Shown one piece after another: positions 37,540 through 47,693 of a DNA stretch of 64,000 nt. The stretch is from an uncultured Methylococcaceae bacterium (GTDB lineage: Bacteria > Pseudomonadota > Gammaproteobacteria > Methylococcales > Methylomonadaceae). A model generated the notes under the pieces. The model had not been told where the DNA came from, searched no databases, and saw nothing but the letters and a program-made list of their open reading frames with translations. The stretch spans positions 1 to 64,000 of the forward strand of contig CAIXAE010000002.1 in the NCBI GenBank assembly GCA_903917345.1, read 5' to 3'. Numbering within the stretch: position 1 is the first letter of the stretch; the number at the start of each line of letters is the position of its first letter. The translations under genes and the position numbers were made by a program.

Positions 37540-38139
37540 CTATTCAACTAACTTTATAACAGGATCTGAGTAATCAGAAACACCTTCTTTAGAAACGGTA
37601 TTAAAACAAAAGTAGTAATAAGTGGCTGGCGTTAAGCCTGTAAACTCATGCTGTGCATAAGTGCTTGTGACCGGCTCAGAATACTTTTCGTCTGATTCTT
37701 TTTTAAAGATAATATTGTAAGCCACTGCACCCTTAACCGCTTTGATATCAACAATAACAATACCGCTACTTGCGCCAGACTTTACGGCTAATTCTGCCTT
37801 TTGATGAGGGGTAGGTACTTTTGATGCGTTGAAGCCACTTTGGGCAATAATCGTCTCATCGCCTTTAGCGACTTTATTGACATAATTGACTAATAGATGA
37901 AACATATCATCGAGTTGTTTTTCTTTATCTTGCAAAAGCAGAGCGGCGATATGACCACCGTCTTTTGCATTTAATATCGCTGTTTCAAACTCATCGATTA
38001 AAGCGTTAATAGTGGCGATAGGGATGTCGATGGTAGGAAAAATGGCCACATTGGCTAATTTACTTGAAACATTTCTGCAGAAAACCAGTTTAAGGGCATT
38101 GTTGAGTTGTATAAAGTCTAGCTTTGCAACTATTGTCAT
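37540..38139 (-). CDS. Hypothetical protein with fibronectin type III-like domain
   Basis: A 199-residue protein with no signal peptide. The N-terminal half is helical and not recognised. The last 90 residues resemble a fibronectin type III fold: GASSGIVIVDIKAVKGAVAY as an early strand, then TSTYAQHEFTGLTPATYYYF and TVSKEGVSDYSDPVIK, with the usual L-tPATxYxF and DYS-P pattern. Such proteins in gammaproteobacteria are often uncharacterised. The gene is isolated between rep and the repeat array. Function unknown. Confidence 0.7.
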   Translation of the reverse strand: MTIVAKLDFIQLNNALKLVFCRNVSSKLANVAIFPTIDIPIATINALIDEFETAILNAKDGGHIAALLLQDKEKQLDDMFHLLVNYVNKVAKGDETIIAQSGFNASKVPTPHQKAELAVKSGASSGIVIVDIKAVKGAVAYNIIFKKESDEKYSEPVTSTYAQHEFTGLTPATYYYFCFNTVSKEGVSDYSDPVIKLVE

Positions 38140-38348
38140 TTGGAACCTCTATAAGATGACAGGGGGGAACAGTCACTATAGGCTCTTAACTTAATATAGC
38201 TATCTTTATCGTTAAACGAGTAAAAATAAATTAATGATTTTTAAGGTTTTTTATCTCAAGCTGCTGTATTCATACATTATTAATATGGAAAATAAAATTA
38301 TTTATTTTCCATAACGAACTATTCAATAGCCGTCTCGACGGCTAAAAA
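38140..38348. other. AT-rich spacer with two perfect hairpins
   Basis: Between the fibronectin-like gene and the tandem array lie two perfect inverted repeats: TATGGAAAATA/TATTTTCCATA (38284-38313, 11-bp stem, 8-nt loop) and TAGCCGT-CTCG-ACGGCTA (38327-38344). Neither has a T run after it on either strand, so they are not ordinary terminators. The second ends five bases before the first array unit. Confidence 0.6.
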
Positions 38349-38831
38349 CACATTAAAGCTTACACTTAGGGATTTATCGCTTTAGTTTGGCTAAAGAAAG
38401 CTTTAGTTCCACACATTATCACGAGCGTATCACCAACCGGAATTTAGGTTAGCCACATTAAAGCGATAATGTTATAGACCCAAGCTTTAATGTTATGAAC
38501 TTAAGCTTTGTTTACTCACATTCTAACGAGAAGTTGATCAATCATGGCTTGGGTTTAAGTAAACAAAGCATTAGTTACACACATTATCACGAGCGTATCA
38601 GCAACCGGCGTTTAGGTTACTCACATTAAAGCTTAGATTGTATAAACCTAAGTCTTAATGTTATGAACAAAGATTTTATTTACGCATATTAAAGCGATAA
38701 GTTGATCATTCATGGTTTTAATGTGGCTAAAGAAAGCTTTAACTTAGGATGTTTTCGCTTTAGTTACCCCCTATCAAAGCCATCATGTCATGAACCTAAG
38801 CTTAGGTTAACCTAAAGAAAGCTTCGGCTAT
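38349..38831. repeat. 483-bp tandem array: 23 degenerate 21-bp units, 168-bp higher-order period
   Basis: The stretch parses without gaps into 23 units of 21 bp. Many contain a central AAAGCTTT or AAGCTT-like core and begin CACATT, CTAAAG or TGAAC. Every eighth unit matches best: ACACATTATCACGAGCGTATCA occurs at 38411 and again at 38579, AAGTTGATCA at 38531 and 38699, and the CTAAAGAAAG-type unit at 38391, 38559 (GTAAACAAAG) and 38727. The offset is always 168 bp (8 x 21). It is not a CRISPR: there are no conserved repeats with unique spacers. In one plus frame it reads as degenerate heptapeptides broken by TAA codons. Confidence 0.85.
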
Positions 38832-38972
38832 AAAACACCTTAATATACGTCACAAACTGTCGCAGCCGTGTCATAACATACAAGTGATTAAGTCAGGCCG
38901 ATAGACAAAAAAATAGTAAAATGCAGCTTATTGAGTTTTAATTGAACTTACTTTATAAACACACCACTACGA

Positions 38973-39002
38973 CTACAGTTGGGCATCAATCCAATAAATC
39001 AT
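38973..39002 (-). pseudogene. Remnant of a toxin gene next to the DUF433 antitoxin
   Basis: A start codon overlaps the DUF433 stop (GCATGA). It opens a frame reading MIYWIDAQL and then stops at TAG. This nonapeptide resembles the N-terminus of DUF5615 PIN-like toxins (pattern M-x-x-W-I-D-A-Q/N-L-x-P), the usual downstream partner of DUF433 antitoxins. Nothing toxin-like follows; the tandem array begins about 140 bp further on. The gene appears truncated by deletion or replacement. The match is short, so this is a moderately supported inference. Confidence 0.55.
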
Positions 39003-39190
39003 GCAACTAATCGCTCTACATTTGCACGACGAGCCTTATATTTAAGACAGGCTTGAATATCAAGTAACTCTAAATTTGGAAAATCTTGCAGGATTTCTTC
39101 TTGGCTTACGCCTTCACCTAACATTTGTAGAATGTCGCTAACGCGAATTCTCATATTACGAACACAAGGCTTACCACCAAAATTTCCCAT
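38999..39190 (-). CDS. DUF433 domain antitoxin, toxin partner lost
   Basis: A 63-residue protein with the DUF433 signature GGKPCVRNMRIRVSDILQML followed by GVSQEEILQDFPNLELLDIQACL, a helix-turn-helix-like fold found in VapB45-type antitoxins. The usual N-terminal ten residues before GGKPC are mostly missing: an in-frame stop lies a few codons upstream, so the ATG at 39190 is the best start. Combined with the truncated toxin it looks like a decaying or orphan module. Confidence 0.75.
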   Translation of the reverse strand: MGNFGGKPCVRNMRIRVSDILQMLGEGVSQEEILQDFPNLELLDIQACLKYKARRANVERLVA

Positions 39191-43728: not shown

Positions 43729-43804
43729 TGGAGCTAGTGAGGGGATTCGAACTCCTGACCGGCTGATTACAAATCAGCTGCTCTACCGACTGAGCTACAC
43801 CAGC
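43729..43804 (-). tRNA. tRNA-Thr (anticodon UGU), distal copy
   Basis: The 76-base sequence read on the minus strand begins GCTGGTGTAGCTCAGTCGG and ends with encoded CCA. The anticodon stem is GCTGA/TCAGC around loop TTTGTAA, giving TGT. The T arm with GGTTCGA-type loop (AGTTCGAATCC) and the 7-bp acceptor are complete. It is identical along its whole length to the neighbouring copy 69 bp away. Confidence 0.95.
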
Positions 43805-43873: not shown

Positions 43874-43949
43874 TGGAGCTAGTGAGGGGATTCGAACTCC
43901 TGACCGGCTGATTACAAATCAGCTGCTCTACCGACTGAGCTACACCAGC
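43874..43949 (-). tRNA. tRNA-Thr (anticodon UGU), proximal copy
   Basis: Identical in all 76 positions to the copy at 43729-43804, with CCA encoded and anticodon TGT. The two are in tandem and share one terminator, so they are processed from a common transcript. The upstream gene on this strand is ygiQ (stop at 43994), 44 bp away. Confidence 0.95.
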
Positions 43950-47186: not shown

Positions 47187-47693
47187 ATGGAAGAGTTAAT
47201 ATTTGTATTATTGGTTATATTTTTGGCTTATGTTGCTTATCAAGTGGTCAATGAGGGCAAAGAGACTTCAACAAAAGAAGAATCAAAGCCAGAAGCGGCT
47301 TCAAAAACTAATTTGGCTGCAGCAGTAAAATCTGAAACAGTGGTTCCAGCTAAAAAACCGACTACTATTAAACCTAAAGTCATTAAAAAAGCGACACCGA
47401 AAGTAGTCGCGGCTAAAGTTGAAACACCTAAAGCTAAAGTAGCGGCAAAAGTAGAAGCGCCTAAAGTGGTTGCTACAGAGCCTGCAAAAAAAGGTTTAAA
47501 GAATCCGTTAACAGGTGAGGTGGCTACTACTTATAGCAACTATCGTTTTACTAAACGTTGGATAAAAGATGCTTTGGTTACAGAAGGTTTATTAGATCAA
47601 GTTTATAAAAATACAGATTTAACTGATGCGGTAGAAGCTAACATTAAAGCGGCTATTATTAAATTAGAAGCATTGGATAACTATAAGCCTTAA
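47187..47693 (+). CDS. Membrane-anchored Ala/Lys/Pro-rich hypothetical protein
   Basis: A 168-residue protein. A single N-terminal helix (ELIFVLLVIFLAYVAYQVV) is followed by about 90 residues of low-complexity A, K, P, V and E (repeats such as VAAKVEAPK), then a compact C-terminal domain, GLKNPLTGEVATTYSNYRFT to the end. The ATG at 47187 is chosen for the strong AAGGGGG just upstream. The layout of anchor, flexible linker and small globular domain suggests a periplasm- or cytosol-spanning tether. No family recognised. Confidence 0.65.
   Translation: MEELIFVLLVIFLAYVAYQVVNEGKETSTKEESKPEAASKTNLAAAVKSETVVPAKKPTTIKPKVIKKATPKVVAAKVETPKAKVAAKVEAPKVVATEPAKKGLKNPLTGEVATTYSNYRFTKRWIKDALVTEGLLDQVYKNTDLTDAVEANIKAAIIKLEALDNYKP

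Follow-up and report, generated by a model that had tools for sequence, protein, structure and literature searches.

Tandem arrays of 20-22-bp units beside genes for helical-bundle and fibronectin type III proteins: unit length and dyad symmetry tend to last while sequence turns over

Background

The window, the whole 64,000-nucleotide stretch of DNA analysed here, comes from an uncultured Methylococcaceae bacterium and contains at 38349-38831 a degenerate tandem array for which the original prediction offered two readings, a decayed gene of heptad repeats or a phased protein-binding or structural array. The question raised by this locus is which of these it is, if either, and what related loci keep of it. 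Regulatory DNA is normally recognised through conserved sequence. In the arrays described below the sequence turns over, and what tends to last, across two phyla, is unit length, dyad symmetry and adjacency to a gene family. The features of the locus are as follows.

37540..38139, minus strand: gene for a 199-aa cassette protein with an N-terminal helical bundle and a C-terminal fibronectin type III (Fn3) domain; many paralogues
38140..38348, minus strand: leader, presumed to bear a promoter, as -10-like hexamers in the family are commonest 40-80 bp before the gene
38313..39120, no strand: 808-bp segment with a second copy in the same genome (contig C3, ~80453-80935, 94% identical, without the Fn3 gene)
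38328..38343, no strand: inverted repeat AGCCGTC-TC-GACGGCT, read from the sequence, at the gene-proximal end of the array
38349..38831, no strand: degenerate dyad-symmetric array (AAAGCTTT core) of 23 units of ~21 bp each, with a 168-bp higher-order period
38999..39190, minus strand: DUF433 gene on the far side of the array, the only one left in the window of the set of neighbours seen in genome G034

Results

The array in the window and its copies

Both periods of the original prediction, 23 units of about 21 bp and a higher-order repeat of 168 bp, proved real. TRF, the kind of repeat finder proposed as a check, recovers both: the 168-bp period at 38392-38715, in 1.9 copies with 81% matches and a score of 441, and the 21-bp period as a run at 38467-38509. 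Over 38349-38831, lags that are multiples of 21 have a mean identity of 0.417, where 2000 Markov resamples give 0.272 (z 14.6); at lag 168 identity rises to 0.60, where the null maximum is 0.362, and the remaining multiples of 21 up to 252 lie at 0.35-0.45, with an average of 0.264 at other lags. The array had been described as free of indels, which is close to the truth without being exact: 19 of 23 units are best placed in register, units 21-22 are best shifted rightwards by one base and unit 16 leftwards by one, the fit of the final unit is ambiguous, and segmentation gives a 22-bp unit at 38754-38775 and another at the right end. The predicted near-palindromic core was borne out, the consensus unit containing AAAGCTTT with a dyad score of 0.388 against a null of 0.329, as high as in none of 2000 column permutations. 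At 21 bp the cores would indeed lie on one face of the DNA, but this is no general rule, as related cassettes have units of 20 or 22 bp. For arrays of this kind, DNA bent by phased A-tracts was rejected, the W/S autocorrelation being negative at lags 10-11. At the gathering threshold, Rfam gives only two tRNAs in the window, where two adjacent tRNA-Thr(TGT) genes lie on the minus strand at 43729-43804 and 43874-43949; a weak 15-bp tandem repeat (4.3 copies) occupies 47400-47467.

Direct DNA comparison matched 5 of 35 genomes of the genus at E <= 0.001, own genome counted, one of these matches (G020) being 30 bp long with no array visible around it. In the proposed search of the genome and its relatives with the unit profile, 17 of the 35 genomes match at E <= 0.01, and four strongly (E < 1e-10 in G000, G022, G028 and G034 only). 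Six weak matches were read, the others having had TRF at most, and four of the six (G033, G027, G030 and G022:C279) proved to be without an array; that on G022:C101 resembles a decayed array and adjoins hsdR and DUF433, and that in G012 (L052) is a true array of different sequence. In a scan with organism names the relatives fall in Methylococcaceae, a contig of Methylobacter psychrophilus Z-0021 among them. The window's genome is Methylobacter-like, and M. psychrophilus Z-0021, which can be cultured, bears arrays as well.

The surroundings of the array differ among these relatives. In G034 two contigs end in the array, one with the Fn3 gene next to it and the other with restriction, KAP and DUF433 genes; on the latter (L019, 375-8839), a type I restriction system and KAP-type NTPase genes, named by eye, lie between array and DUF433. 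Combining the two contigs suggests for G034 the order Fn3 gene, array, restriction system. G028 retains a short array and, by eye, an apparent hsdR start. The inverted repeat at 38328..38343 differs in the second copy at the outermost base only, and one of its arms is partly changed in G028. In G022, at L065 (7772-8560), a 42/43-bp dimer array lies upstream of an HsdM-like fragment.

The second copy, on C3, adjoins EVE-like and rsmA genes, and at the same place G012 has an array together with an Fn3 gene 81% identical to that of the window; array and gene can thus part. Such parting is among the grounds for regarding the arrays as recombination or mobilisation sites, which a recombinase would recognise to move cassettes in the manner of attC in integrons. 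Recombination sites are usually dyad-symmetric, the cassettes are scattered and patchy, and at the EVE/rsmA locus the gene is missing from the C3 copy and present with its array in G012. We nevertheless hold this to be quite unlikely, since the absence of covariation within units gives no sign of folded single-strand recognition, no recombinase stood out among the ORF lists read, and the queries used drew no family match from plasmids, phages or viral contigs.

A gene family associated with arrays

The gene at 37540-38139 has matches in 25 of the 35 genus genomes, 13 of these matches being in its own genome, and upstream of the paralogues stand period-21 arrays of unrelated sequence. The final set comprises 140 distinct family genes, of which 15 upstream and 11 downstream were dropped for a flank under 420 bp; the loci were picked by homology, with a limit on their number that favours strong protein matches. 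At z >= 7, where z is an ad hoc lag statistic with control ORFs from the own genome as its yardstick, an array of period 20-22 lies upstream of 81 of 125 family genes and of 10 of 541 controls (other ORFs of at least 150 aa, drawn from 860 kb of the own genome only, several of the 10 positives sharing arrays); Fisher's test gives p 7e-60, although shared descent among some of the arrays and genes makes p and z values overstate independence. All 81 upstream signals have period 20, 21 or 22. A downstream array is found in 12 of the 129 family genes with enough sequence. Among the 114 genes readable on both flanks, 85 carry at least one array and 29 none at the threshold, and 12 of the 15 own-genome family genes listed carry one. 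Several draft contigs end near a family gene (e.g. G022:C275, G030:C85 and G022:C69); arrays may break assemblies, and the family may be undercounted in drafts.

Arrays also occur away from the family. A period-21 signal at z >= 7 appears at 11 places in the 860-kb sample, the window included, and nine arrays in that sample have no adjoining first-family gene, one of the nine lying upstream of a gene of a second family. The parting of array and gene accounts for one gene-less array; L191, L205, L207, L212, L220, L193 and L214 fall outside that account. At L214 (232-610) a palindromic array of 22-bp period (ACTACA..TGTAGT type) lies by a PIN-domain-like gene, with no Fn3 gene seen; at L193 (8527-9094) a degenerate 20-bp-period array lies downstream of an rlmN-like gene; and at L220 (9514-9850) a 21-bp array upstream of a trpF-like gene resembles, by eye, that of L103, whose family gene has an internal stop.

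The first family is patchily spread. Its genes were found in one of 274 genomes of the class sample, the own one; in 15 of 151 genomes, from 3 of 44 genera, of the order sample; and in 9 of 395 genomes in the phylum of the Bacteroidota genome G309, two of these matches covering the C-terminal part only and one being weak (E 4e-7). Bacteroidota genes with arrays are L141, L142, six of the seven in G308 and G309, L229-L233 and L237; the C-terminal-only matches of G587 and G622 have no array. Plasmids, phages and viral contigs gave zero family matches with the queries used. The second family was reached via L226, an array without a first-family gene. Of its 26 readable loci, 13 have a period-21 array upstream, and none of 25 has one downstream, gene ends being extrapolated from partial matches. 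Its profile is weakly similar to that of the first family (probability 40%, E 3e-4), and its structural model has helices followed by a beta sandwich matching Fn3 domains. Cassettes of gene and array make up a large set, apparently undescribed, in methane-eating and other bacteria.

The cassette protein

The model of the window protein (mean pLDDT 94.2, pTM 0.60) starts with a helical bundle and closes with an Fn3 domain, residues 115-199 superposing on an Fn3 chain with Z 13.8 and rmsd 1.4 over 84 aligned residues. Its Pfam fn3 match (E 6.9e-5, 23.4 bits) lies slightly under the curated cut-off of 25. At E <= 0.01, the Pfam matches of 61 members were fn3 (16), FN3_DSCAM (2), Pur_ac_phosph_N (1) and nothing else. 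Among the same 61, a defence library gave one weak match (HEC-01A, E 0.007); for family members NCBIfam gave weak, chance-like matches only, and PHROGs matches of the Fn3-type tail-protein kind. Structure searches were filled by Fn3 matches, so that the helical half was barely probed. Two findings tell against the operator reading set out below: no DNA-binding family appears among the Pfam matches of the 61 members, and net charge in the cassette proteins averages -1.3 (range -5 to 5), slightly on the acidic side, for which reason we do not claim that they bind the arrays.

Coding and RNA readings

If the arrays were heptad-repeat genes, selection should have kept a frame open. A stop-free frame on the gene strand does exist in 9 of 32 arrays (e.g. 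L142 and L143), but a reversed nonsense control is stop-free in 19 of the 32. In the best frame stops are more numerous than in nonsense controls, whether reversed or complemented, variability peaks at the third codon position in only 3 of 32 arrays, and several arrays have frame-breaking units of 20 or 22 bp, others keeping period 20 or 22 throughout. The arrays carry no coding signal, the heptad-repeat protein gene is rejected, and the decayed gene of the original prediction is hardly credible.

If transcribed, an array might instead yield a repeat RNA with control over the protein encoded next to it, the arrangement of type III toxin-antitoxin systems. A tandem array adjoining a gene of ~200 aa, constant by group in repeat length and divergent in sequence, recalls ToxI as presented in PMC5086642, and array RNA is more stable than that of column-permuted arrays (mean z -2.37; 40 of 68 arrays), as palindromes would be in any case. 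Against unit-order shuffles the folding energy of the same 40 arrays is not special (z -0.47), and the gene strand is the one that folds less stably. A per-unit hairpin was rejected, halves matching at 0.483 within a unit and about 0.49 between units over a background of 0.27. G.U pairs are not preferred in the arrays (0.0017 +/- 0.0067), which also lack covariation; in a simple scan, terminators between array and gene (3 of 57 leaders) are no commoner than in shuffles (2.7), the opposite strand giving 6; 11 of 68 arrays sit downstream of the gene; and a ToxN-type toxin is absent from the Pfam matches of 61 members. The RNA reading therefore seems distinctly improbable. No CRISPR-like polarity of unit age was seen in 57 arrays.

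Halves that match equally within and between units, with no excess of G.U, are what is expected of half-sites read in duplex DNA, and with the coding, hairpin, RNA-strand and bent-DNA readings failing, two-fold symmetric duplex DNA remains.

Symmetry, period and sequence turnover

Dyad symmetry was examined in 68 arrays (z >= 7.5, at least 150 bp by the region caller), an earlier set of 32 having been taken at z >= 6 and 120 bp; the window's own array, tested separately, is outside the 68. The arrays have about 8-24 units that abut without spacers. Dyad symmetry exceeds z 2 in 49 of 68 arrays and in 3 of 68 simulated random arrays, and 5 of 53 period-21 arrays score below zero; the symmetry is common, not universal. 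Conservation on one side of the dyad correlates with that on the other (r 0.304; a null that keeps the columns and the way of choosing the axis gives 0.049; 68 arrays, z 6.4), and symmetric columns are the better conserved (z 6.3), 50-52 of the 68 arrays lying above their own null.

These results bear on a possible mutational or selfish origin of the arrays, a copying process (slippage on palindromes, unequal exchange) that would yield palindromic arrays of near-fixed step beside these genes, which then decay without any regulatory role. Several observations agree with it: array quality spans near-perfect to very degenerate, 48 of 68 arrays have an even number of units in their best higher-order multiple, array segments without a gene exist (the second copy is one), and look-alike arrays, judged by eye, stand at the unlinked loci L103 and L220. 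A neutrally decaying palindrome in simulation, however, lacks mirror-image conservation, neutral decay does not predict a period linked to clade, and 85 of the 114 family genes readable on both flanks have kept an array. We regard a purely copying origin as rather unlikely.

Period follows the protein tree. On a FastTree tree with many weak forks and several long branches, on which 92 of 140 genes are labelled, period changes 10 times (mean 17.3, minimum 13 in 1000 label shuffles), and period and side together change 12 times against 22.5 in shuffles. Array period is linked to protein clade and not wholly fixed within clades: the clear cases are one clade with 20-bp arrays downstream and one with 21-bp arrays downstream, and period 22 is confined to a distant subfamily, mixed there with 21.

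Unit sequence, by contrast with period, is specific to the locus. Leaders of upstream period-21 cassettes, and the array consensus sequences, were compared with unrelated pairs. Where proteins are 60-70% identical, the 99th percentile of unrelated pairs is passed by 12 of 21 leaders and by 2 of 21 arrays; at 70-80% identity the counts are 12 of 13 and 6 of 13, and above 90% both pass it in all three pairs. For L111 and L101 the leader is 80% identical over 178 bp and the arrays have a similarity of 0.376, where unrelated pairs have 0.344 and a 95th percentile of 0.401. One way to picture such turnover is an identity code, in which each cassette's own protein, or a partner, would recognise its own array only and diversify with it, giving dozens of private addresses per genome with spacing set by clade. 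We think this unlikely.

Discussion

We tentatively favour, at a little below an even chance, arrays of operator-like duplex-DNA sites for a putative dimeric protein, upstream of the cassette promoter. The cassette would have two parts, the array being the cis-acting one, followed by the promoter and then the gene for the helical-bundle and Fn3 protein. Each unit of 20, 21 or 22 bp would offer a dimeric DNA-binding protein a recognition sequence with dyad symmetry, many units in register could permit cooperative binding, and the bound protein would switch or silence the adjacent promoter. Unit spacing would follow the cassette clade, with a recognition sequence that is locus-specific and turns over fast. 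Of the original alternative of a phased protein-binding or structural array, the binding half is thus the one favoured, by dyad symmetry, mirror-image conservation and the lack of the RNA signatures tested, and A-tract bending falls away. Several results speak against operators: the excess of -10-like hexamers is modest (19 of 55 against 12.4 expected), nine arrays of the 860-kb sample lack an adjoining first-family gene and 29 of 114 family genes an array at the threshold, period varies to some extent inside clades, and the arrays of close relatives stay similar.

If functional, the arrays would be a kind of cis-element invisible to motif searches, and would offer a way into a large family, so far uncharacterised, of helical-bundle and Fn3 proteins. 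If not, they point to a copying process with a step of 20-22 bp whose mechanism would be new.

Comparison with known systems

In type III toxin-antitoxin systems (ToxIN, CptIN and TenpIN), as here, a tandem array adjoins a gene, there that of the toxin, and repeat length is near-constant per group; for ToxI, repeats are described as constant in length inside a group and divergent in sequence (PMC5086642). The arrays described here differ in having units of 20-22 bp, not the 34-36 nt of ToxI, in about 8-24 mostly dyad-symmetric copies; in showing no excess of terminators between array and gene and sometimes lying downstream; and in adjoining a gene for a helical-bundle and Fn3 protein, not a ToxN-type nuclease.

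Plasmid iterons are direct repeats of ~18-22 bp, about two helical turns, that bind protein in register and are linked to a replication initiator gene. The present arrays share that direct-repeat length and a presumed protein binding, but there are many per genome, by chromosomal-looking genes and each with its own sequence; no Rep gene was noticed in the ORF lists read, and plasmid records had no match to the query used. CRISPR loci combine a conserved leader with a variable array, unique spacers separating near-identical, partly palindromic repeats. Here too a conserved leader stands by a variable array of partly palindromic repeats, but there are no spacers, the repeat itself varies by locus, and cas genes were not noticed in the ORF lists read. 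In higher-order repeats of the alpha-satellite type, several copies of a short unit recur together as one block, which points to unequal exchange; the block of 8 x 21 in the window array is alike, but these arrays are short, intergenic and bacterial, and are tied to a gene family.

A search of open-licence PubMed Central papers, by title or abstract start, found no description of such arrays, and the original judgement that the array fits no standard repeat class stands for the classes tested. With arrays of operators the elements share dyad-symmetric units (49 of 68, z > 2) and mirror-image conservation (z 6.3-6.4 over 68 arrays). Judged from sequence, they appear to lie outside every class tested, and would be new in that period and symmetry persist while the sequence itself is expendable.
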